This document shows, in pieces, positions 20,435 through 40,097 of a stretch of DNA of 64,000 nucleotides. Location of the stretch: contig JAHEIZ010000004.1 of the NCBI GenBank assembly GCA_024639145.1, positions 1 to 64,000 of the forward strand. Direction: 5' to 3'. Source of the DNA: Actinomycetes bacterium. GTDB taxonomy: Bacteria > Actinomycetota > Actinomycetes > S36-B12. The first letter of the stretch is position 1. Every line of letters begins with the position of its first letter. A program made the translations under genes and the position numbers. Under the pieces are notes generated by a model. That model had not been told where the DNA came from. It was given only the letters and a program-made list of their open reading frames with translations, and searched no databases.

Positions 20435-21484
20435 ATGGAAATCGGACTCAATCTTGGCTACTGGGGCGCCGGAAATGACGCGTCGAACATCGCTTTAGCA
20501 CTGGAGGCCGATTCGTGCGGGTACTCCTCGGTGTGGGTGGCCGAGGCGTATGGCTCCGATGCCGTCACGATCTTGTCGTGGATCGGAGCGCAGACCTCGA
20601 CTATTGACCTCGGCTCCGCCGTATTCCAGATCCCGGCTCGCACGCCTGCGAATGTGGCGATGACCGCAGCAACCCTTGATGCGCTGTCGGGCGGTCGGTT
20701 CCGACTCGGGCTCGGCGTGTCCGGTCCTCAGGTCTCCGAAGGCTGGCACGGGGTGCGTTTCGACAAGCCGCTTGCGCGCACGCGTGAATACGTAGCAATC
20801 GTTCGTGATGCCCTGGCTCGGAAGAAGGTCACTTTCGACGGCGATTTCTTCACCCTCCCTCTGCCCAATGGCCCTGGCAAGGCACTTGCGATCAACTTCC
20901 CGCCCGTGCGTGAGCACCTGCCGATCTACCTGGCGGCCATCGGGCCGAAGAATCTCGAGCTCTGCGGTGAGATCGCCGACGGTTGGCTGGCGATCTTTTA
21001 CTCGCCCGAGTATGCGGGTGAGCAGCACGAGGCGATCGCACGAGGACGCGCCAAGATTGGCAAGACCATGGACGGCTTCGACGTTGTCCCGACTCTTCCG
21101 GTTGTCGTGGGGGATGACCCGCACATGTGTGCCAACGCCCTTCGCGCGAACAGTGCCCTGTACATCGGCGGCATGGGCAGTCGCGAGAAGAACTTCTATA
21201 ACCAGCTTGCCGTGCGGATGGGCTTCGATGAGGCGGCAGCACAGGTGCAGGAGCTCTTCCTCGACGGCAAGTACAAGGAAGCCGCGATGGCCGTGCCCTT
21301 CGAATTCATCGACCAGACCTCCCTGCTCGGATCCCCGGCTCGCATCAGCGAGCGACTTGCTGCGTACGAGGCTGCGGGTGTTACGACGATCAGCATCACT
21401 CCGGTGGCCGAGTCTCTCGAAGACCGGCTCAAGGTAGTTCGCCTCATGGGTGATCTCGTCGATGACTCCCCGGATGCCGCCTGA
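20435..21484 (+). CDS. LLM-class F420-dependent oxidoreductase
   Basis: Luciferase-like signatures AEAYGSDAVTILSWIGAQT, LDALSGGRFRLGLGVSGPQVSEGWHG. Confidence 0.92.
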   Translation: MEIGLNLGYWGAGNDASNIALALEADSCGYSSVWVAEAYGSDAVTILSWIGAQTSTIDLGSAVFQIPARTPANVAMTAATLDALSGGRFRLGLGVSGPQVSEGWHGVRFDKPLARTREYVAIVRDALARKKVTFDGDFFTLPLPNGPGKALAINFPPVREHLPIYLAAIGPKNLELCGEIADGWLAIFYSPEYAGEQHEAIARGRAKIGKTMDGFDVVPTLPVVVGDDPHMCANALRANSALYIGGMGSREKNFYNQLAVRMGFDEAAAQVQELFLDGKYKEAAMAVPFEFIDQTSLLGSPARISERLAAYEAAGVTTISITPVAESLEDRLKVVRLMGDLVDDSPDAA

Positions 21485-22302
21485 TGGGGTGGTTCGAAGC
21501 CCTTGTCCTGGGCATCGTCCAAGGACTCACGGAATTCCTGCCCGTGTCCTCCAGTGCACACATCCTCATCGTCTCCCAATTGTTCGGCTGGAACGATCCG
21601 GGCGCTGCATTCACTGCAGTCACACAGATCGGCACCGAGTGCGCAGTGCTCCTGTATTTCCGCAAGGACCTGATGCGCATCATCGGCACGTGGTGCCGCA
21701 GCCTCGTGAACCCTTCGCTGCGCAGGAATCTTGATGCACGAATGGGCTGGTACATCATCATCGGCACGATTCCTGTCGTGGTTCTCGGCGTGATCTTCGC
21801 AGATCAAATCGAAACCGTCGCCCGCAATCTGTGGCTCGTGTCCTTCACCTTGATCATCTTCGGCCTGATTCTCGGTTATGCCGATCGCATCGGACGCAAG
21901 CAGAAGTCACTCGCCAGCCTGAACTCCGGCCAGGGCATCATGTTCGGAATCGGCCAGGCATTTGCGCTCATCCCCGGTGTCTCGCGCTCAGGTGCAACGA
22001 TCTCCACTGGCTTGTTTCTCGGCTTCACTCGCGAGGCAGCGGCCCGCTACTCATTCCTACTTGCCATACCCGCGGTACTCGGTTCGGGCCTTTACGAGGC
22101 TCGCAAGATCGGCAGTGATGCGAGTGTTGCCTGGGGGCCGACCATCATGGCCACGATCATCGCGTTCGTGATCGGTTTCGCCGTGATCGCCTGGTTGTTG
22201 CGCTGGGTGAGCACGCGAAGCTTCACTCCCTTCGTCATCTACCGGGTAGGACTCGGCTTTGTCGTCATGATCCTGCTGGCGGCGGGAGTGCTGAGCTCAT
22301 GA
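21484..22302 (+). CDS. uppP: Undecaprenyl-diphosphatase
   Basis: GIVQGLTEFLPVSSSAH and IPGVSRSGATISTGLFLGF motifs; start overlaps the preceding stop. Confidence 0.96.
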   Translation: MGWFEALVLGIVQGLTEFLPVSSSAHILIVSQLFGWNDPGAAFTAVTQIGTECAVLLYFRKDLMRIIGTWCRSLVNPSLRRNLDARMGWYIIIGTIPVVVLGVIFADQIETVARNLWLVSFTLIIFGLILGYADRIGRKQKSLASLNSGQGIMFGIGQAFALIPGVSRSGATISTGLFLGFTREAAARYSFLLAIPAVLGSGLYEARKIGSDASVAWGPTIMATIIAFVIGFAVIAWLLRWVSTRSFTPFVIYRVGLGFVVMILLAAGVLSS

Positions 22303-22985
22303 CCACCGTGCTCCTCGTTCGGCATGGCCGGACCAAGGCCAATGCCGACGGAATCCTGGCCGGACACATGCCCGGCGTGAAGCTCGATACGCAAGGGCGC
22401 AAGCAGGCCGCAGAACTCGCGGAGCGCCTCTCCGAGGTCCGCATTCCGCGCATCATCAGCTCACCGCTCGAACGCACGGTTGCCACGGCTGATGCGATTG
22501 CCGCGTTTCAACGCCGGTCTGTCATCAGGGACATTGATGATCGCTTCGTCGAATGCAAGTACGGAGACTGGACAGGCCGAAAGCTCGGCGATCTCGCCAA
22601 GGAGCCGATGTGGTCGGTTGTGCAGGCACATCCGAGCGCCGCGGTGTTTCCCGGTGTCGAGGGCGAGAGCATGCGAGATATGCAGCATCGGGCCGTTGAG
22701 GGTGTCCGCGAATGGAATGAGACCGTGGGCAATGACGGGCTCTACGTGGTGGTCAGCCATGGGGATGTCATCAAGGCGATCCTGGCCGATGCCCTGGGCA
22801 TGCACCTTGATGCCTTCCAGCGCATCCGCGTTGATCCGGCCTCGCTGAGCATCGTGCAGTACACGTCACATCGACCCTTCGTCGTGCGTAGCAATGACTC
22901 GGGGGTTGATCTCGCGCGTCTCCTCAAGCCCGCACGATCGAAGGCGAAGTCGAGTGATGCCGCTGTCGGCGGAGGCAAGGGATGA
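22299..22985 (+). CDS. Histidine phosphatase superfamily protein (MSMEG_4193-type putative phosphomutase)
   Basis: VLLVRHGRTKANADGILAG; SSPLERTVATADAI; YVVVSHGDVIKAILADALG. Confidence 0.9.
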   Translation: MTTVLLVRHGRTKANADGILAGHMPGVKLDTQGRKQAAELAERLSEVRIPRIISSPLERTVATADAIAAFQRRSVIRDIDDRFVECKYGDWTGRKLGDLAKEPMWSVVQAHPSAAVFPGVEGESMRDMQHRAVEGVREWNETVGNDGLYVVVSHGDVIKAILADALGMHLDAFQRIRVDPASLSIVQYTSHRPFVVRSNDSGVDLARLLKPARSKAKSSDAAVGGGKG

Positions 22986-23548
22986 GCCGCCAGGTCTTCG
23001 AATTCCGCGATCCGGAGCGCTTCGTTGCTGGCACTGTCGGCATGCCGGGAGAGCGCACGTTCTTCCTTCAGGCACGTAAAGGGAACGCACTTACGAGCAT
23101 CGTGGCGGAGAAGGGTCAGGTCTCGGTACTCGCCGATCGCATTGACCAGCTCCTCGACGAGGTTCTCGAGACGCGTGAGGTCAACGTGGAGATCCCACCC
23201 GCCGGAGTTGATCTCATTGCCGACTCGGCACCACTCGATGCTCCGATCGTGGAGGAATTCCGAGTCGGGGCAATGGCGCTGGGCTGGGATGACGCCTCAT
23301 CGCATGTTGTCATCGAGGCGCATGCCATCAGCGAGGAGTTCGACGAGATCCCGGAACTGGCTGACGATGATGCCGAAGGTCCCGATTCGCTTCGCGTCTG
23401 GGTCACGGCCATCCAGGCGCGCTCATTCGCTGAGCGCGCTCGAGCAGTGGTCTCCGCGGGTCGGCCGCCCTGCCCGTTCTGCAATCAGCCTCTTGATGCC
23501 GGTGGTCATGTCTGCCCGCGCGCCAACGGCTACCGACGACGCACATGA
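22982..23548 (+). CDS. DUF3090 family protein
   Basis: FEFRDPERFVAGTVGMPGERTFFLQA N-terminus; C-terminal CPFCNQPLDAGGHVCPRANGYRRR; position between the phosphatase and the PI4K-like gene. Confidence 0.9.
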   Translation: MSRQVFEFRDPERFVAGTVGMPGERTFFLQARKGNALTSIVAEKGQVSVLADRIDQLLDEVLETREVNVEIPPAGVDLIADSAPLDAPIVEEFRVGAMALGWDDASSHVVIEAHAISEEFDEIPELADDDAEGPDSLRVWVTAIQARSFAERARAVVSAGRPPCPFCNQPLDAGGHVCPRANGYRRRT

Positions 23549-24351
23549 TCGAGCCGGTCCACGAATGGCTGAATGATCCACGACTGCTCACGGCATTGTC
23601 CGAGGGCGAGCTCACGGTCGAGGGTCGTCTCGCCGTGGCTTCAAATGCGACGCTTTTGTGCACTGTGCCGATTGAGGGCGATCGACTCCTGCACTGCGTC
23701 TACAAGCCGGTTGGCGGTGAGCGCCCGCTTTGGGATTTCCCCGACGGGACCCTTGGCCGCCGCGAGCTGGCGGCTTTCTCGCTCTCTGAGGCATTGGGCT
23801 GGCATCTGGTGCCGCCTACAGTGTGGCGTGAGGATGGCCCGGCCGGCCCGGGCATGTGCCAGGCCTGGATCGAAGAGTCCGAGAGCGCCGATGTCATCGA
23901 TGTCTGCGCGCCGACCGACGTACTGCCCGGCTGGATTCTCGTCATGACCGCTGAGGATCAGCAGGGCAACCCACTCCTTCTCGTGCATGCCGATCGCGCG
24001 GATCTCCATCGAGTGGCGGCATTCGATGCGCTGACGAACAATGCCGACCGTAAGGGCGGGCACGTGATTCTCGATTCCGATGACCGCATCTGGTGTATTG
24101 ATCACGGAGTGTCCTTCAATGTCGACGACAAGCTGCGCACTGTGCTCTGGGGTTGGGCAGGGGAGTCAATCGATGACGATGTCGTGAGGGATCTGATCAC
24201 TATCGAACCTCGGCTCGCGGAGATTCTTGAGCCCTGGCTGGCGCCGGAGGAGATCAGGGTCACCCAGCAGCGCCTGCGGTCACTCATTGACACCGGCACG
24301 ATGCCGCAGCCATCGCCCGAGTGGCCTGCGGTCCCGTGGCCGGTCTTCTAG
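23545..24351 (+). CDS. SCO1664-family protein, PI3/PI4-kinase-like fold
   Basis: CVYKPVGGERPLWDFPDGTLGRRELAAFSLSEALGWHLVPPTV plus ALTNNADRKGGHVILDSDDRIWCIDHGVSF (kinase-like Lys, catalytic Asp loop, metal Asp). Confidence 0.88.
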   Translation: MIEPVHEWLNDPRLLTALSEGELTVEGRLAVASNATLLCTVPIEGDRLLHCVYKPVGGERPLWDFPDGTLGRRELAAFSLSEALGWHLVPPTVWREDGPAGPGMCQAWIEESESADVIDVCAPTDVLPGWILVMTAEDQQGNPLLLVHADRADLHRVAAFDALTNNADRKGGHVILDSDDRIWCIDHGVSFNVDDKLRTVLWGWAGESIDDDVVRDLITIEPRLAEILEPWLAPEEIRVTQQRLRSLIDTGTMPQPSPEWPAVPWPVF

Positions 24352-24369
24352 TCGCACTAGGCTGATCGG

Positions 24370-25596
24370 GTGAAGTCGTGGAGCGTGCCGGCACCGGCGA
24401 AGATCCCGGGCCTGGCGCCTGCCCTGTCGTTGATGGATACAGGTACCGGAACCATCAGGCCAACCGATCCGCAGGGCACGGCGCGTATGTATGTCTGCGG
24501 CATCACGCCCTACGACGCTACCCACATGGGTCACGCGGCCACCTACGTCGCATTCGACATGGTGCAACGAGTCTGGCGCGATGGTGGTCACCCGGTGCTG
24601 TATGTGCAGAACGTCACGGATATTGATGATCCCCTGCTCGAGCGCGCTGTTGCCGTGGGAGAGGACTGGCAGGTGATCGCCGAGAGAGAGACCGCGCTCT
24701 TCCGTGAGGACATGACAGCCCTCAATGTGCTGGCACCGGATCACTACATAGGTGCCGTCGAGGCGATTCCCTCGGTAGCGGGCTACGTGCAGTCGCTCCA
24801 AGAGCGAGGCGTGGTCTACGCAGTCGACGAGGATCTCTATTTCTCAGTGGGCAGCGATCCTGCCTTCGGCAGCGTGGCCCATCTCGATGAGTCGGAGATG
24901 ATTCGGATCTTCGCCGAGCGCGGGGGCGATCCTGATCGCCCCGGGAAGCGGCATCCACTCGATTGCCTCCTGTGGCAGGCCGCCCGACCGGAAGAGCCGT
25001 CGTGGGATACAGCACTCGGGCATGGCCGTCCCGGCTGGCATATCGAGTGCACCGCCATTGCCCTCGACTACCTCGGCATGGGCATTGAGGTGCAAGGCGG
25101 CGGCAGTGATCTCGCATTCCCTCATCATGAGATGGGAGCCTCCGAGGCTCAGGTCATTCGCGAGGAGTACCCCTACGCACAGCACTACGTGCATGCGGGA
25201 ATGGTCGCCTGGCAGGGACACAAGATGTCGAAGTCGCGCGGAAATCTCGTATTCGTGTCCGTGCTGCGAGCCGAGGGGCACGATCCAATGGCCATCCGGC
25301 TCTCGCTTCTCGCGCACCACTACCGCAGCAATTGGTCCTGGACTCCGCATGGCCTGCAGGGTGCCACCGACCGTCTCGGCCTCTGGCGAAGTGCAGTGGC
25401 GTGCGCTGCCGGAGATGAGGCAGCGCCTTACATCACGCGAATCCGCGAGCATCTGGCCAATGATCTCCAGACGGCTGCGGCCCTCGACGTCATGGACGCA
25501 TGGAGTGTCAAGGCAATGACCGGTGCCGGCACGGACACCGATGCTCCGGCGCAGATGTCAGCCCTGTGTGACTCGCTGCTCGGCGTACGTCTATAA
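24370..25596 (+). CDS. mshC: Cysteine--1-D-myo-inosityl 2-amino-2-deoxy-alpha-D-glucopyranoside ligase (mycothiol biosynthesis)
   Basis: CysRS-like motifs [73 protein letters not shown]. Confidence 0.95.
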
Positions 25597-25600
25597 ACAG

Positions 25601-26626
25601 CTACTTCTTTTCGGAGTGGCCACCGAAGGCCTTGCGCATTGCGCTCAGCACCTTGCCTGCGTAGGTGCCGTTGCCCTGTGACTCGAAGCGTTCGTACAGC
25701 GCCGCGGTGAGCACCGGGGCCGGTACGCCCTCGTCGATGGCGGCGATTGCAGTCCAGCGTCCCTCGCCGGAGTCAGAGACGCGGCCGCCGAACTCTTCGA
25801 GACCAGGTGACTGGTGAAGGGCGTTAGCCGTGAGGTCGAGTAGCCAAGAGCCGACGACGCTGCCGCGACGCCATAGCTCGGCGACGGCAGGAATATCGAT
25901 GTCGTACTGGTAGAACTCCGGGTTGCTCATCGGGGCGGTCTCGGCATCGGCGTCGCGAGAGGCCTTGCCCGCATTGGCGTGCTTGAGAATGTTCAGGCCC
26001 TCGGCATACGCGGCCATCAACCCGTACTCGATGCCGTTGTGCACCATCTTCACGAAATGGCCGGCACCGCTGGGGCCGCAGTGCAGCCAGCCGGTCTCTT
26101 CGGGGGCGACGTCGCCGCTGCGCCCAGGCGTGCGTTCTGCGGTGGCGAATCCGGGAGCGATGGTGTCCCACAGGGGTGCGAGTCGATTCACCGCAGAGTC
26201 ATTCCCGCCGATCATCAGGCAGTAACCGCGCTCGAGACCCCACACGCCGCCTGAGGTGCCGACATCGAGGAAGTCGATGCCCTTGTCGGCAGCCTGGGCC
26301 GAGTGCCGGATGTCGTCGCGGTAGTACGAGTTGCCGCCGTCGATGAGCGTGTCGCCGGGGCTCAGGAGGCCCAGGAGTTCACTGACCACGGAATCGGTGA
26401 TGCGACCGGCCGGAACCATGACCCAGATGGTGCGTGGTGCGGGCATTGCCGCCACGAGTTCGGCCAGGCTGGCCGCACCGGTGGCTCCATCGGCCACCAG
26501 GGGAGCAACGGCCGCGGGATCCGGGTCATAGGCAAAGGCCTGGTGTCCGCCGCGCATGGCACGCCGCACGAGGTTGGCACCCATGCGGCCGCAGCCGACC
26601 ATTCCCAGGGTTACTGACTGGCTCAC
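25601..26626 (-). CDS. gnd: 6-phosphogluconate dehydrogenase, decarboxylating (short type)
   Basis: GMVGCGRMGANLVRRAMRGGH, DVGTSGGVWGLERGYCLMIGG, GHFVKMVHNGIEYGLMAAYAEG. Confidence 0.94.
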   Translation of the reverse strand: MSQSVTLGMVGCGRMGANLVRRAMRGGHQAFAYDPDPAAVAPLVADGATGAASLAELVAAMPAPRTIWVMVPAGRITDSVVSELLGLLSPGDTLIDGGNSYYRDDIRHSAQAADKGIDFLDVGTSGGVWGLERGYCLMIGGNDSAVNRLAPLWDTIAPGFATAERTPGRSGDVAPEETGWLHCGPSGAGHFVKMVHNGIEYGLMAAYAEGLNILKHANAGKASRDADAETAPMSNPEFYQYDIDIPAVAELWRRGSVVGSWLLDLTANALHQSPGLEEFGGRVSDSGEGRWTAIAAIDEGVPAPVLTAALYERFESQGNGTYAGKVLSAMRKAFGGHSEKK

Positions 26627-26682
26627 GCGGACTCCTCGCGGTCAATGCGCCTCGTAGGTGGCAGCAGTGCAAGGCTAGTGCC

Positions 26683-28314
26683 ATGACCACGGCCGCCCTC
26701 TCGTCCGACAGTCCTCTCGACACATCTGCCTGGGCTGCCTTGCGCGCCCTCGCCGAGGGCATGGAGGGCACCACCATTCGTTCCCTCGTCGAGGCAGATG
26801 ATTCACGGCCCGGGCGACTAACACTCGATGCGGCCGGACTCAGCCTCGACTTCTCGCGCCAGCGTGTCACCGACGAAGTCCTGGCGCAGTTGCGTGAGCT
26901 CGCCGAGCAGCGGGGCGTGGCCCCGGCACGTGCGGCAATGCTCGAAGGCGCGCACATTAATACCACCGAGGATCGCGCAGTGCTGCACACCGCATTGCGT
27001 CGACGCGGCGAGCTGTCTCTCATCGTCGATGGCCAGGACATCTCCGCCGATGTCCATGACGTCCTGGACCGCATGGGTCATTTCGCCGAGCGCGTGCGAT
27101 CAGGCGAGTGGAAGGGTGCGACAGGTCAGCGGATCCGCACAGTCGTCAACATCGGTATCGGCGGCTCTGATCTCGGTCCGGCGATGGCCTATCTGGCGCT
27201 GCGTGCCTTCAGCGACCGAGATCTTGCCTTCCATTTCGTCTCGAATGTTGACCCCACCGATCTGGCCGAGGCCATTCGCGATCTCGACCCGGCGACGACT
27301 CTGTTCATCGTCGCCTCCAAGACCTTCACGACCCTCGAGACAATGACGAATGCCGAGGCGGCACGACGTTGGCTCGTGAACGATCTTGGTCCCGATTCCG
27401 TCTCGCATCACTTCGTCGCGGTCTCCACGAATGCGTCAGCAGTATCAGCTTTCGGCATCGATCCTGCGCACATGTTCGGCTTCTGGGATTGGGTCGGCGG
27501 GCGCTACTCCATGGATTCCGCCATCGGTCTGTCGACCATGATCGCGATTGGCTCCGATGGCTTTGCGCAGCTGCTTGATGGCTTCCGTGCGATGGACGAG
27601 CACTTTGCCAGTGCACCCGCAGAGGCGAATCTGCCGCTCCACCTTGGCCTTCTGAGTGTGTGGAACCGCAACTTCCTTGACATCGAGACCACGGCAGTCC
27701 TGCCGTACTCGCAGTACCTGTCGCGCTTCCCGGCGTACCTTCAGCAGCTCACCATGGAGAGCAACGGCAAGAGCGTGCGGCGCGATGGCACCCCTGTGGA
27801 CTATGAGACAGGCGGGATTTTCTGGGGCGAGCCCGGCACCAATGGGCAGCATTCGTTCTATCAACTTCTCCACCAGGGCACCGATACTGTCGCCTGCGAC
27901 ATCATCGTCGTTGTGCAGTCGGAGAATCCTGACGGCGACCAGCAGGCGATGCTCGTGGCGAATGCTCTCGCGCAGGCTTCGGTGCTCTCCATCGGCCGCG
28001 ATGCGGCACAGGTCGCTGCTGATGGAACGCCCGCCGCACTCGTGCCGCACAAGGTGATGCCCGGAGATCGTCCGGTGAATCTCATCATGCTGGAACGACT
28101 CGATCCCGCTGCTCTCGGTGCGCTCGTCGCGCTCTATGAGCACAGCGTGTTCGTGCAAGGCGTCATCTGGGGGATTGATTCATTCGATCAGTGGGGAGTC
28201 GAACTCGGCAAGAAGGTTGCCATGGGGATCTTGAGCCAATTGGTGGAGGGAATTCCTGCAGATGTCGATGCCTCCACCCGGGCATCCATAGCGCGCTACG
28301 AGGCCCTGCGCTAG
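26683..28314 (+). CDS. pgi: Glucose-6-phosphate isomerase
   Basis: VNIGIGGSDLGPAMAYLAL, GGRYSMDSAIGL, MESNGKSV, GEPGTNGQHSFYQLLHQGTD, FDQWGVELGKKVA. Start at MTTAALSS rather than the ORF start 26434. Confidence 0.96.
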   Translation: MTTAALSSDSPLDTSAWAALRALAEGMEGTTIRSLVEADDSRPGRLTLDAAGLSLDFSRQRVTDEVLAQLRELAEQRGVAPARAAMLEGAHINTTEDRAVLHTALRRRGELSLIVDGQDISADVHDVLDRMGHFAERVRSGEWKGATGQRIRTVVNIGIGGSDLGPAMAYLALRAFSDRDLAFHFVSNVDPTDLAEAIRDLDPATTLFIVASKTFTTLETMTNAEAARRWLVNDLGPDSVSHHFVAVSTNASAVSAFGIDPAHMFGFWDWVGGRYSMDSAIGLSTMIAIGSDGFAQLLDGFRAMDEHFASAPAEANLPLHLGLLSVWNRNFLDIETTAVLPYSQYLSRFPAYLQQLTMESNGKSVRRDGTPVDYETGGIFWGEPGTNGQHSFYQLLHQGTDTVACDIIVVVQSENPDGDQQAMLVANALAQASVLSIGRDAAQVAADGTPAALVPHKVMPGDRPVNLIMLERLDPAALGALVALYEHSVFVQGVIWGIDSFDQWGVELGKKVAMGILSQLVEGIPADVDASTRASIARYEALR

Positions 28315-29159
28315 TCGTTGGAACCGCGGCGACGCAGGTAGCGCTCGAACTCACGGGCAATAGCCTCGCCACTTGCCTCGGGCAAATCAGCGGTGTCGCG
28401 CGCTTCTTCGAGTTGTTTGACGTATTCCTCGATCTCGTCGTCCTCCGCAGCCAGTTCGTCGACGCCGGCTTCCCACGCACGTGCGTCCTCAGGCAGATCT
28501 CCGAGCGGAACAGGCACGTCGAGAATGTCCTCGATGCGGCCGACTAGCGCCAAGGTGGCCTTCGGGCACGGCGGTGCCGCGACGTAATGCGGAACGGCAG
28601 CCCAGAGGCTTATCGCCGGAATCTCGAACCGCGTGCATGCTTCCTGGATCACGCCCACTATGCCGGTCGGTCCTTCGTAGTGAGAAGCCTCGATTCCCAT
28701 CTCGTCGCACAGGGAGAGATCGGTCGAGGAACCGGTGACCGGAACCGGTCGCGTATGCGGGCTGTCGGAGAGCAAGGCTCCGAGAGTGATGACGAGTTGC
28801 ACGTCGAGCTCGGCAGCGAGCGCGAGGATCTCTCGGGTGAACTGCTGCCATTTCATATTCGGCTCCACGCCCTGCACGAGGATTACATCGCGCGGCGACA
28901 GCGGTAACCGCGCGACGTAAAGTCGAGTCCCGGGCCAGGTGAGCTGGCGAACGCCGGCCTCATCGATGGCGATCATCGGGCGATTGACCTGATAGTCGTA
29001 GTACTCCTCGGAATCGAGCTCAGTGAGAAGCTGCGCATCCCATGCATCGATCAGGTGGGCAATCGTTCCGCTCGCGGAGTCACCTGCGTCATTCCAGCCC
29101 TCGAATGCGCAGACCATGACCGGGTCCACGAGTACGGGAAGCTCGTCGTACTCGATCAT
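28311..29159 (-). CDS. PAC2 family protein
   Basis: MVCAFEGWNDAGDSASGTIAHLI, TLGALLSDSPHTRPVPVTGSS, ISLWAAVPHYVAAPPCPKATLAL. Start MIEYDEL, ATGA overlap. Confidence 0.9.
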   Translation of the reverse strand: MIEYDELPVLVDPVMVCAFEGWNDAGDSASGTIAHLIDAWDAQLLTELDSEEYYDYQVNRPMIAIDEAGVRQLTWPGTRLYVARLPLSPRDVILVQGVEPNMKWQQFTREILALAAELDVQLVITLGALLSDSPHTRPVPVTGSSTDLSLCDEMGIEASHYEGPTGIVGVIQEACTRFEIPAISLWAAVPHYVAAPPCPKATLALVGRIEDILDVPVPLGDLPEDARAWEAGVDELAAEDDEIEEYVKQLEEARDTADLPEASGEAIAREFERYLRRRGSND

Positions 29160-29986
29160 CAGCCCTCCTCGCCTGCGGCATCGTGCACCGTGGTGATCCA
29201 GCCTGCCACGAGTGCGGGCCATTGCAGAGGTACGTCGTGAATCGCTCCCTGCCAGATCTGAAGATTGAACTCACCGATCTCCTGAAGTCGACGTTCAACC
29301 AAGGCATCCAGTGCACGGGAGTCCGTGCAGAGAACTGCCCACGTATCGAGTCGACGTGCGCGAATGTCAGACACGCTGTCGTAATCGAGCAGGCCGTCGA
29401 GCACCTCCATGTGCCGATCAACGCCGATTCGAGTACGGATGACGCCATCGGCCTCGATGAATGTAGGGGCGAGGGCGGCACGGATCTCCTCGGACCAGTA
29501 CGAAGCAAGATTCCCGGTGGAGATGAGGCGCCAGAGCTCATCGACGCGAATATTCAGGGCAGGCGGCCGCAGTCGTTCGCGTACCTCGGCGCGATCGCCC
29601 ATGTCCCCAGGGCCGCGCAGTCCGCCGTCGAGCAGGCCGATGGTGCGCACCCTGTCGGGATCCGCGGCGCCAAGCCGGGCCGCCACGGCGGCGCCCCAGG
29701 AGTGACCGATGACAGTGGCGGTACTCACGCCACGCGCATCCATGACCTCGATGACGTCCTGGGCGCATCGTTCGATGGAGAAGTCGGCGCCAAGCGGGGT
29801 GTCGGACAGCCCATGCCCTCGTTGATCAAGGCGCAGGATGCGCGGAGCCTGCAGGTACGTGCAGACGGGATCCCAGAAGTGGCGCTGCTGGGAGAGTCCG
29901 TGCAGCAGCACGAGGGCATCAGTGCCGCTTCCCTCGTCACTGCCGTGCAGAACCTGCTCATCTGAGGTCTCCACGGTCCAGGACAT
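29159..29986 (-). CDS. Alpha/beta hydrolase
   Basis: VLLHGLSQQRHFWDPVCTYL, RILRLDQRGHGLSDTP, VIGHSWGAAVAARLG (GxSxG). Start at MSWTVET. Confidence 0.92.
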   Translation of the reverse strand: MSWTVETSDEQVLHGSDEGSGTDALVLLHGLSQQRHFWDPVCTYLQAPRILRLDQRGHGLSDTPLGADFSIERCAQDVIEVMDARGVSTATVIGHSWGAAVAARLGAADPDRVRTIGLLDGGLRGPGDMGDRAEVRERLRPPALNIRVDELWRLISTGNLASYWSEEIRAALAPTFIEADGVIRTRIGVDRHMEVLDGLLDYDSVSDIRARRLDTWAVLCTDSRALDALVERRLQEIGEFNLQIWQGAIHDVPLQWPALVAGWITTVHDAAGEEG

Positions 29987-35333: not shown

Positions 35334-36968
35334 ATGACCGACAACACCGCCGATGCGGCGCTGCCCGGTTCACGCGACCCGTTAGTAGCCCTGACTGAGC
35401 AGAACGAGAGGCTCACCACTGTCTTGCGCGAGGCGCGCGAGCAGATCCTGGGTCTTAAGGCGGATGTCGCCAAGCTCGCCGAACCTCCCAGCGGCTTCGG
35501 CATATTCCTCGAGGCGCACCTTGACGGCACCGCTGATGTCCTGAGCAATGGCCGTCGCTTTCGGGTCGTCCTGAGCCCGACAGTGGACCTCGCCGACCTG
35601 GGTCCTGGCCAGGATGTCCTGCTTAACGAGTCGATGAACCTGATCGAGGCGGCCGGGTTCGAATCGGCGGGGGAGATCGTCACGCTGAAGGAGATTCTTG
35701 CTGACGGTCGTCGCGCCCTCATCAAGGGCCGAACCGATGAGGAGCGGATCGTGCACATCGCCGCCCCGCTTCTCGGCAAGCGGCTTCGCTCAGGTGACTC
35801 TCTGCTGATGGACTCGCGTGCCGGGTTCGTCCTCGAGCGCGTTCCTAAGTCAGATGTCGAGGATCTCGTACTCGAGGAAGTCCCCGATATCGGCTATGAC
35901 GACATCGGAGGCCTCACCTCTCAGATCGAGCAGATTCGCGACGCCGTCGAACTGCCATTCCTGCACCCGGGGCTCTACGCCGAGCATGAGCTTGCCGCGC
36001 CGAAGGGAATCCTGCTCTACGGACCACCCGGGTGCGGCAAGACTCTTATCGCGAAGGCCGTGGCCAATTCGCTCGCGAAGCAGATTGCAGAGAAGTCAAG
36101 TGTCGATCACGGCCGATCCTTCTTCCTGAACATCAAAGGCCCGGAGTTGCTCAACAAGTATGTCGGCGAGACTGAACGTCATATCCGCATCGTGTTTGAG
36201 CGCGCACGTGAGAAGGCGAGCGAAGGCATGCCCGTCATCGTGTTCTTCGACGAGATGGATTCCCTCTTCCGCACGCGCGGATCAGGAGTCTCCAGCGACG
36301 TCGAGAACACGATTGTGCCGCAGCTTCTCAGCGAGATCGATGGTGTCGAAGGCCTCGAGAACGTCATCGTGATCGGCGCCTCGAATCGAGAGGACATGAT
36401 CGACCCGGCCATCCTTCGACCCGGCCGACTCGACGTCAAGATCAAGATCGATCGCCCTGATGCCGCGGCGGCTAGAGAGATCTTCGCCAAATACCTCACG
36501 ACAAGCCTGCCGATTCACCCCGAGGAGATCGCGCGGCATGGGGAGGCCCAGGCTGCCTGCACGGCGATGATCAACGGTGCAGTGGAATTGATGTATTCCG
36601 ATGCGCCGGAGAATCAGTTCCTCGAGGTGACGTACGTCAACGGTGACCGAGAGATCCTCTACTTCCGCGACTTCAGCTCCGGCGCCATGATCGAGAACAT
36701 CGTGTCTCGCGCGAAGAAGTCGGCAATCAAGGAATTCATCGCAGGCCAGGGAAAGGGCATTCGAGGCGAGCATCTCATCAGTGCCTGTCTCGACGAGTTT
36801 CGCGAAAACGAGGATCTCCCGAACACGACGAATCCTGATGACTGGGCACGCGTTTCGGGCAAGAAGGGTGAGCGCATCGTCTACATACGCACACTCGTCC
36901 ATGGAGGGGCCGCCGGAGACACCGGCCGGTCTATCGCCGACATCGGCAGCACCGGCACCTACCTCTAG
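35334..36968 (+). CDS. arc: Proteasome-associated AAA ATPase (ARC/Mpa)
   Basis: N-terminal coiled coil, [40 protein letters not shown]-terminus ...[12 protein letters not shown]. Confidence 0.97.
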
Positions 36969-36970
36969 CG

Positions 36971-38494
36971 ATGGAGTCACGCGGGGTTCGCAGAGTCATG
37001 GGCATCGAGACCGAATATGGCATCAGCATGCCCTCGCATCCCACCATCACGGCAATGCACGCCTCAGGTCTCGTGGTCAATGCCTACGCTCAGCGTTATC
37101 TGCCGGCCGCCGATCGGCGGGCTCACTGGGATTACCTCCCCGAGTCGCCGCTGCGCGATGCGCGCGGGTTCGACATGAGTCGCGCCGATGCCGATCCGGG
37201 TCAGCTGACCGACGAGGATCTCGGAACGGCGAACGTGATCTTGACCAATGGTGCTCGGCTGTATGTCGATCACGCGCACCCGGAGTACTCGGCGCCGGAG
37301 TGCCTGACTCCACGCGAAGCAACTCTTCATGATCGTGCCGGCATGATGGTGATGGCCGAAGCTGCTGACCTGGCTTGCCGGATTCCGGGAAGTCCGTCGA
37401 TCCTTCTGTACAAGAACAACACCGATAACAAGGGCGCGTCCTACGGCTGCCACGAGAACTACCTGATGTCTCGCACGACAGCCTTTGCCGACGTGGTGCG
37501 TTTCTTCACGGCATTCCTAGTCACCCGGCAGGTGTTCACCGGCGCCGGTCGACTGGGCAAGGGTCAAGAAGGCAGGGTTCTCGAGTACCAGATCAGCCAG
37601 CGCGCTGACTTCTTCGAGACTGAAGTCGGGCTCGAGACCACCGTGCGTCGACCGATCATCAATACTCGCGATGAGCCCCACGCTGATCCGGAGATATCTC
37701 GACGTCTGCATGTCATTACCGGCGACGCCAATCTCAGTGATACCGCGACCTTGCTCAAACTCGGCAGTGCCTCACTCGTGCTCGGCATGATCGAGTCTGG
37801 ATTCCTGCGCGATGACGACTTCACTCTCATCGATCCGGTAAGCGAGATGCATCGAGTCAGCCATGATCCCAGCCTTCAGCATCGAGTGCGACTGAGTGGT
37901 GGCAGAAGCATGACGGCGGTGGAAGTTCAGTCGCTCTATCTCGAGCGTGCGCTGGAATGGGTGGGCAGTTCACCTGATCCGCAGACGCTGGAGATTCTGA
38001 GGCTATGGGAGTTCGTGATCACGACCTTAGGTGCGGACCCCATGAAGTGCGGGGGATTCCTCGACTGGGTGGCAAAACTGAGGCTACTCGAGGCGTATCG
38101 CACTCGTGACTCACTGAACTGGGATTCACCGGCGCTTCAGCTCATCGATCTCCAGTACTCCGATATCCGAGCCGAGAAGGGTCTGGCCCGCCGACTGGAG
38201 GAACGCGGACGACTGGCTCGCCTGTTCACCGACGACGAAGTGAAGGCGGCCGAAAGGTGCGCTCCCGAGTCGACCCGCGCGTATTTTCGGGGCGAATGCG
38301 TGCGTCGATATCCAGAGCAGCTAGCGGCAGCCTCATGGGATTCCGTGGTCTTCGACGTCCCGGACCAGGAGCAGCTGGTGCGAGTGCCCACGCGTGATCC
38401 CTTGCGCGGCAGCCGAGCCCATGTCGGCGAACTCTTCGATGTCGATCCATCGCTGGCGGATCTTCTTCGGGCGTTATCCCTCGACGAGGGCTAG
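36971..38494 (+). CDS. dop: Pup deamidase/depupylase
   Basis: [55 protein letters not shown]. Confidence 0.96.
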   Translation: MESRGVRRVMGIETEYGISMPSHPTITAMHASGLVVNAYAQRYLPAADRRAHWDYLPESPLRDARGFDMSRADADPGQLTDEDLGTANVILTNGARLYVDHAHPEYSAPECLTPREATLHDRAGMMVMAEAADLACRIPGSPSILLYKNNTDNKGASYGCHENYLMSRTTAFADVVRFFTAFLVTRQVFTGAGRLGKGQEGRVLEYQISQRADFFETEVGLETTVRRPIINTRDEPHADPEISRRLHVITGDANLSDTATLLKLGSASLVLGMIESGFLRDDDFTLIDPVSEMHRVSHDPSLQHRVRLSGGRSMTAVEVQSLYLERALEWVGSSPDPQTLEILRLWEFVITTLGADPMKCGGFLDWVAKLRLLEAYRTRDSLNWDSPALQLIDLQYSDIRAEKGLARRLEERGRLARLFTDDEVKAAERCAPESTRAYFRGECVRRYPEQLAAASWDSVVFDVPDQEQLVRVPTRDPLRGSRAHVGELFDVDPSLADLLRALSLDEG

Positions 38495-38503
38495 CCTACG
38501 AAC

Positions 38504-38689
38504 ATGCCTCAACAGCACATCTCCGCAGAATCATCCCGTGACCGTGATGACGATGTGAGCCCGTTCGGCGGTAATGCTCCAGCGGCGTCCACGTCCGGGG
38601 TTGATGACCTGCTCGACGAGATCGACAGCCTGCTTGAGGACAACGCCGAGGCATTTGTGAAGTCCTTCGTCCAAAAGGGCGGGCAGTGA
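38504..38689 (+). CDS. pup: Prokaryotic ubiquitin-like protein Pup (GGQ terminus)
   Basis: 61 aa; [28 protein letters not shown]; lies between dop and pafA. Confidence 0.97.
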
Positions 38690-38717
38690 TCCTTGCCCGT
38701 CGAGGCTCGAGCGTGGC

Positions 38718-40097
38718 ATGAGGCGGCGCATCTTCGGCCTGGAGACCGAGTATGGAATCACCTGCTCCTTCAAGGGGCAACGCCGGCTCAGCCCGGATGA
38801 AGTGGCCCGCTACCTCTTTCGGACTGTTGTCAGCCGAGGCGGAAGCAGCAACATGTTCCTTGCCAATGGCGGACGTCTGTATCTCGACGTCGGTAGCCAT
38901 CCTGAGTACGCGACCGCTGAGTGCGACTCCATCCTTCAGCTCATTGCACAGGACGAAGCCGGCAAGGTAATCGTGCAGGAGTTGGCCGATCTCGCCGAAA
39001 TGCGACTCCGGGACGAAGGTGTCGAGGGCGATATATACCTCTTTCGAAACAACACTGATTCCGTCGGTAACAGTTACGGGTGCCACGAGAACTACCTCGT
39101 GGATCGCATCGGTGACTTCGTCGGACTCACCGAGCAGTTCATCCCCTTTCTCGTCTCGCGTCAGGTGCTCACCGGGGCGGGCAAGGTGCTTCCGCAACCG
39201 GAGGGAGCGATCTTTTGCCTCAGTCAGCGCGCTGATCACATGTGGGAGGGGCTCGCCAGCTCGACTACCCGTTCACGCCCAATCATCAATACGCGCGATG
39301 AACCACATGCGGATGCCGATAGGTATCGACGTCTTCACGTCATTGTCGGTGACTCGAATATGAGCCAGGTCACCACGCGACTCAAGGTCGGAATGGGTCA
39401 CCTCATGCTCTCCGCGCTTGAGAACGGTGTCACAACATCTCACCTCGCGCTCGAGAATCCGATTAAGGCCATTCGTGAGATCAGCCATGACGTCACAGGT
39501 CGTACGCCCGTGGCACTCGCAGACGGACGCACAATGTCAGCGCTCGATTTGCAGGGGGAGTACTTGCGCCTTGCGACGTCCTGGCTTGCCGAGAGCGACG
39601 AAGTAGATGATCCCGAGCATGCCTGGACATTGGACCTGTGGACACGCGGACTCGTGGCGGTGGAATCTGGTGACCTCACATCAGTTGAGACGGAATTGGA
39701 CTGGGTCATCAAGTACCGCCTCCTCAGCCGCTATCTCGGCACGAACGGTCTTGACTGGGATTCGCCGCGAATCGCCCAACTGGATCTTGCTTTTCACGAC
39801 ATCAATCCCGGGCGAGGGATCTTCCCTGTTCTCGAGCGACGCGGCCTAGCTGAACGTCTCGTGACGCAGCAGGAAATCATGGACGCGGTCTCGCTGCCCC
39901 CTCAGACCACCCGGGCACGTGTTCGCGGTGAGTTCGTACGGGCGGCCACTGAGCATGGCCGCGACTTCACCGTGGACTGGGGTCAGGTCAAGCTCAATGA
40001 CCAGCCGAGTCAGGTGCTCATCTGCCCTGATCCATTCGCGAACGTTGACGAGCGTGTCGAGCGACTCATCGCCGATCTCGCCGACGAGTCTAGGTAG
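38718..40097 (+). CDS. pafA: Pup--protein ligase
   Basis: [57 protein letters not shown]. Confidence 0.96.

Follow-up and report, generated by a model that had tools for sequence, protein, structure and literature searches.

Three gene families of Actinobacteria, a histidine phosphatase, DUF3090 and a SCO1664-type kinase, form a well conserved, uncharacterised module, which is already known at the level of families and is ordinary at the locus analysed here. The observations on which we build are the families themselves, their gene order, the kinase fold, the invariance of its catalytic residues and the co-occurrence of the genes among genomes. On balance we believe that the trio works as a reversible phosphorylation module, in which a kinase with the PI4KII/FAM20/HipA fold would use ATP to phosphorylate a substrate in vivo, the histidine phosphatase would remove the phosphate that the kinase adds, and DUF3090 would be a small, putatively zinc-binding accessory co-produced with the kinase. 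As leading specific substrate we tentatively propose an inositol-phosphate headgroup, either of a PI/PIP lipid or of a soluble inositol phosphate, since nearly all genomes that carry the trio have inositol-1-phosphate synthase (Ino1) and PIP synthase (PIPS). The comparative distribution directs work on these genes elsewhere than to mycothiol, the connection proposed until now.

The gene chain in the window

The window, that is the whole stretch of 64,000 nucleotides that was analysed, contains the following genes around the trio:

20435..21484, + strand: F420-dependent LLM-class oxidoreductase (TIGR03559), upstream end of the chain
21484..22302, + strand: uppP, undecaprenyl-diphosphate phosphatase (NF001392, 353 bits, cut-off 308)
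22299..22985, + strand: histidine phosphatase, MSMEG_4193 family (TIGR03848, 290.7 bits, cut-off 203.85)
22982..23548, + strand: DUF3090 (TIGR03847, 229.7 bits, cut-off 117.25; PF11290, 212.6 bits, cut-off 27)
23545..24351, + strand: SCO1664-family protein with a predicted PI3/4K-FAM20-HipA kinase fold (TIGR03843, 334.6 bits, cut-off 172.4; profile positions 1-253 of 253)
24370..25596, + strand: mshC, cysteine:GlcN-Ins ligase of mycothiol synthesis (TIGR03447, 607 bits, cut-off 485)
25601-26626, - strand: 6-phosphogluconate dehydrogenase-like
26434-28314: glucose-6-phosphate isomerase-like (by eye)
28311-29222: PAC2-like (by eye)

The first-pass annotation described a chain of uppP, phosphatase, DUF3090 and SCO1664 genes with mshC following after 18 nt. 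Its coordinates and the three 4-nt ATGA overlaps (22299-22302, 22982-22985 and 23545-23548) are exact, and mshC starts with a GTG codon at 24370, 18 nt downstream of the kinase stop. The chain is in fact one gene longer than was noted, since the start of uppP is overlapped by 1 nt by the upstream oxidoreductase gene. All chain products score above the curated NCBIfam cut-offs, and the earlier statement that the trio consists of known actinobacterial families is borne out by TIGR03848, TIGR03847/DUF3090 and TIGR03843/SCO1664. Judged by their sequences, the window proteins are ordinary members of these families, with nothing distinctive at the locus. The description of the genes as translationally locked is only partly general: among 72 loci, counted with a start-codon choice that is biased toward overlaps, the 4-nt overlap of DUF3090 and kinase is found in 51, whereas that of phosphatase and DUF3090 is found in just 2.

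Two relatives likewise have the dehydrogenase and PAC2-like genes after mshC. Elsewhere in the window (35334-40097) the neighbouring genes of a proteasome ATPase, Dop, a Pup-like ORF (38504-38689, 61 aa, judged by eye to end in GGQ) and PafA form a pupylation group. The interval from Dop to PafA leaves no space for prcB/prcA, and a 20S core does not adjoin the group.

The proteins of the trio

The AlphaFold model of the window kinase has a pLDDT of 91.2 and a pTM of 0.89. Compared with the PDB by Foldseek, it matches DrFam20C1 (1.2e-6), Fam20A (1.4e-6), PI4KIIalpha (6.9e-6) and CtkA (3e-5), all with probability 1.0; other matches are a hydra FAM20 solved with sugar, PI4KII-beta and HipT. The window sequence alone gave no useful match in the PDB, whereas a profile built from 28 kinase members matches FAM20A and PI4K2B (PI4KII-beta). 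Pfam PF00454 (PI3_PI4_kinase) is matched by 25 of 28 kinase relatives, the best at 7.8e-14, and HipA_2 by 8 of 28; for the window kinase's own sequence no PF00454 match is listed up to E=10. The expected ATP lysine, catalytic aspartate and metal aspartate of a PI3/PI4-kinase-like fold (PF00454 group) are found as K54 in YKP, D168 in NNADRKGGH and D186 in IDHG. From the window to the deep lineages, 28 diverse sequences and 44 from the class share K54, D168, R169, K170, H173 and D186 without exception. A kinase fold with an intact catalytic site is well supported, because the profile, Pfam and Foldseek matches are accompanied by these invariant residues. The earlier kinase call thus agrees with both model and profiles, which place the protein in the FAM20/PI4KII/HipA group; the structural comparison with PI4KII and HipA that had been proposed as a check returned a kinase-fold match and an ATP site that is not degenerate. 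In the literature we found only passing mentions of the SCO1664-type kinase and of DUF3090.

The window phosphatase is a histidine phosphatase of branch 1. It carries, as previously claimed, an RHG motif, located near the N terminus, and also VVSHGD with the second catalytic histidine; together with its score these features place it in TIGR03848. In the PDB it is most closely related to phosphoserine phosphatase 1 and to phosphatases of the CobC type.

DUF3090 carries the C-terminal motif C164-x2-C167-x8-H176-x-C178, in which the three cysteines are invariant and H176 is conserved in at least 90% of 27 sequences. The earlier label of putative zinc protein is plausible because this CxxC...HxC site is conserved; it gains conserved candidate ligands, while zinc-ribbon Pfam matches are only weak. 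The structural model is of fair confidence (pLDDT 85), and its fold has no PDB or viral structure match at E<=1e-3. A resemblance to PURA, in two bbbba-like repeats, is weak and was not relied on.

Distribution, neighbourhoods and candidate substrates

Distribution was analysed in a phylum sample of 197 Actinomycetota genomes and in a class sample of 118 genomes of class Actinomycetes, with co-occurrence statistics that ignore phylogeny. Of the 197 genomes, 81 have both kinase and DUF3090; DUF3090 occurs once without the kinase, and the only kinase without DUF3090 is a single match at E=9e-4, which we take as spurious. This near-strict association supports the first-pass reading. The C. glutamicum control is without DUF3090 and keeps kinase and phosphatase. 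The best 80 loci of a GTDB scan are all actinobacterial, and most of them have the same gene order; phosphatase, DUF3090 and kinase are contiguous in 19 of 20 deep-lineage loci. The gene order recurs more than chance would give. Clustering of the 20 deep neighbourhoods revealed no conserved fourth partner, and other shared neighbours are lineage-specific.

The trio is not always complete. No phosphatase was found beside the DUF3090-kinase pair in the loci of Saccharopolyspora, Actinophytocola and Umezawaea, and DUF3090 is relocated, away from a phosphatase-kinase pair, in seven genomes of family f72. Since DUF3090 is absent or relocated, or the phosphatase is not found, in some loci, the three proteins need not form one complex; the kinase is the hub and the constant element of the module. 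Variants were recorded on the side. Four loci hold DUF3090-kinase pairs with no phosphatase match in the available flank, at four loci the relocated f72 DUF3090 adjoins a lineage-specific gene resembling ferrochelatase (by eye), and three genomes have two DUF3090 copies each. In genome G008 a second phosphatase-kinase pair (L050:8892-10266) is unaccompanied by DUF3090; its neighbours resemble VWA, MoxR-type ATPase and LLM genes (by eye) and give no clue to a substrate. This second kinase may have been acquired horizontally, because it is closest to deep-lineage sequences in the alignment.

These variants bear on the nature of the substrate. The kinase might phosphorylate a protein, as HipA, CtkA and FAM20C do, with the histidine phosphatase reversing the reaction and DUF3090 serving as an adaptor, a regulator or one substrate among several; we consider this a serious possibility, although not one that we would assume. 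Proteins are the substrates of FAM20C, CtkA, HipT and HipA, and several solved kinases among the Foldseek matches (FAM20C, CtkA, HipT) are of this kind; moreover, the DUF3090-kinase overlap is kept in most loci, and a putative zinc ribbon is present in DUF3090. However, C. glutamicum and the second pair of G008 have the kinase but no DUF3090, therefore DUF3090 cannot be the sole substrate, and histidine phosphatases of branch 1 mostly act on small molecules.

The distribution of the trio suggests inositol as one candidate. Of the 82 trio genomes 79 have Ino1, against 58 of 115 others; PIPS-like genes, whose matches in deep lineages are mostly below the curated cut-off, are found in 80 of 82 versus 55 of 115. 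Counted by families, with the tables drawn up by eye, Ino1 is found in 24/24 versus 19-21/32 (Fisher p ~2e-4 to 1e-3) and PIPS in 24/24 versus 17/32 (Fisher p=4e-5). The five-genome family f81 is without PIPS, trio and mshC; against the association, about half of the trio-less genomes also carry PIPS-like and Ino1 genes. The trio is therefore nested within the lineages having Ino1 and PIPS and almost confined to genomes equipped for inositol lipids, an association that is suggestive only, because the tests take no account of common descent, and PIPS matches in deep lineages are often below cut-off.

Shared ancestry alone would explain the inositol correlation if the kinase acted on some other small metabolite, a sugar (as FAM20B acts on xylose) or another compound. 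The fold similarity to the hydra Fam20 solved with sugar, and a correlation uncorrected for phylogeny, speak for this reading, which we hold to be rather doubtful; against it, the correlation is kept when families are counted, and f81 is without PIPS, trio and mshC together.

The inositol headgroup, our leading candidate, matters beyond this locus. We know of no kinase assigned to the stress-induced PI3P synthesis of mycobacteria. This synthesis has been reported (Morita 2010, as cited in PMC3542357), and the actinobacterial phosphatase that turns PIP into PI has been described as unknown (PMC7502851, PMC9246714); for these two reasons the inositol association deserves attention, and a module acting on inositol headgroups would fill recognised gaps. 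The fullest version, a bacterial phosphoinositide cycle in which the SCO1664 kinase would be the actinobacterial PI kinase of stress-induced PI3P and/or the TIGR03848 phosphatase would be the PIP phosphatase of PI synthesis, with DUF3090 as accessory, is in our opinion unlikely.

A linkage between SCO1664 and mshC has been published, and a link to mycothiol suggested with it (PMC4255298). In the phylum sample mshC is above cut-off in 18 of the 197 genomes, all of the window's class; at our own threshold for mshC-like genes (360 bits, counts tallied by eye) it is present in 40 of 82 trio genomes, absent from the other 42, and present in 2 of 115 genomes without the trio. Genomes with mshC almost always carry the trio (18/18 in the class, 22/24 in deep lineages), but the reverse fails, so that of the proposed co-occurrence of the three families with mshC one direction only is retained. 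Phosphatase, DUF3090, kinase and mshC are nearly universal in the 118 class genomes, and the same seven genomes are without all four. Five of these are the complete or near-complete genomes of f81; the remaining two are MAGs, in which one missing contig could explain the loss and which both keep PIPS.

Linkage is equally uneven. Within class Actinomycetes mshC lies downstream of the kinase as a rule. By eye, about 13 of 110 genomes depart from this, with mshC far away, divergent or on a different contig, and it was not found in the flanks of the Pseudonocardia trio loci. In many class loci uppP is several kb off or was not found. Neither uppP nor mshC was found in the flanks (mostly 8-10 kb each side) of the 20 deep-lineage trio loci. 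Presence and linkage of the trio are not restricted to mshC producers, and the functional connection with mshC and uppP proposed earlier does not hold as a general rule, the trio being present and contiguous in many families without mshC. On this evidence the mshC and uppP neighbours are a lineage-level gene cluster and not parts of the module.

It is accordingly improbable that the phosphatase is MshA2 (GlcNAc-Ins-P to GlcNAc-Ins) and that the trio serves mycothiol synthesis: the adjacency of mshC in most of the class, the trio in nearly all mshC genomes, the joint absence from seven class genomes and the published suggestion favour it, but about half of the trio genomes are without mshC, none of the 20 deep loci has it in its flanks, it is unlinked in several class genomes and the known pathway has no step for a kinase. 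As a general rule, a mycothiol-specific role is ruled out by the distribution. An action on undecaprenyl/decaprenyl phosphate together with UppP is most improbable, despite the direct 4-nt uppP overlap in the window and the shared role proposed for Rv2135c and the adjoining uppP, Rv2136c (PMC3866925), and on the neighbourhood data just given (0 of 20 deep loci; many class loci with uppP distant or not found) we reject a uppP-specific role. Of the substrates inferred in the first-pass annotation, inositol survives in the nesting of the trio with Ino1 and PIPS, whereas what speaks for polyprenyl phosphate is adjacency alone.

Comparison with known systems

The M. tuberculosis protein Rv2135c is a tetramer, occurs in membrane fractions and acts as an acid phosphatase but not as a mutase (PMC3866925), which speaks for the phosphatase role proposed here. 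Like the window gene, it is a histidine phosphatase encoded beside uppP, and the two are assigned to the same family by position and description, not by alignment; it differs in carrying RHA, where the window phosphatase has the usual RHG. FAM20A/FAM20C and PI4KII share the fold of the window kinase, and in the alignment with FAM20A the KP, NxDR and D(H/N) stretches correspond; identity is however about 14%, and the DRKGGH loop of the window protein has Lys and His. HipA/HipT and CtkA are bacterial members of the same fold group. No toxin-antitoxin-like partner of the SCO1664-type kinase was seen; its context is instead a conserved phosphatase and DUF3090. A further comparison is with the families TIGR03843, TIGR03847 and TIGR03848, whose TIGRFAM notes presumably describe already an actinobacterial trio with a PI-kinase-like member: the window proteins belong to them, and their gene order is the same as that of their relatives.
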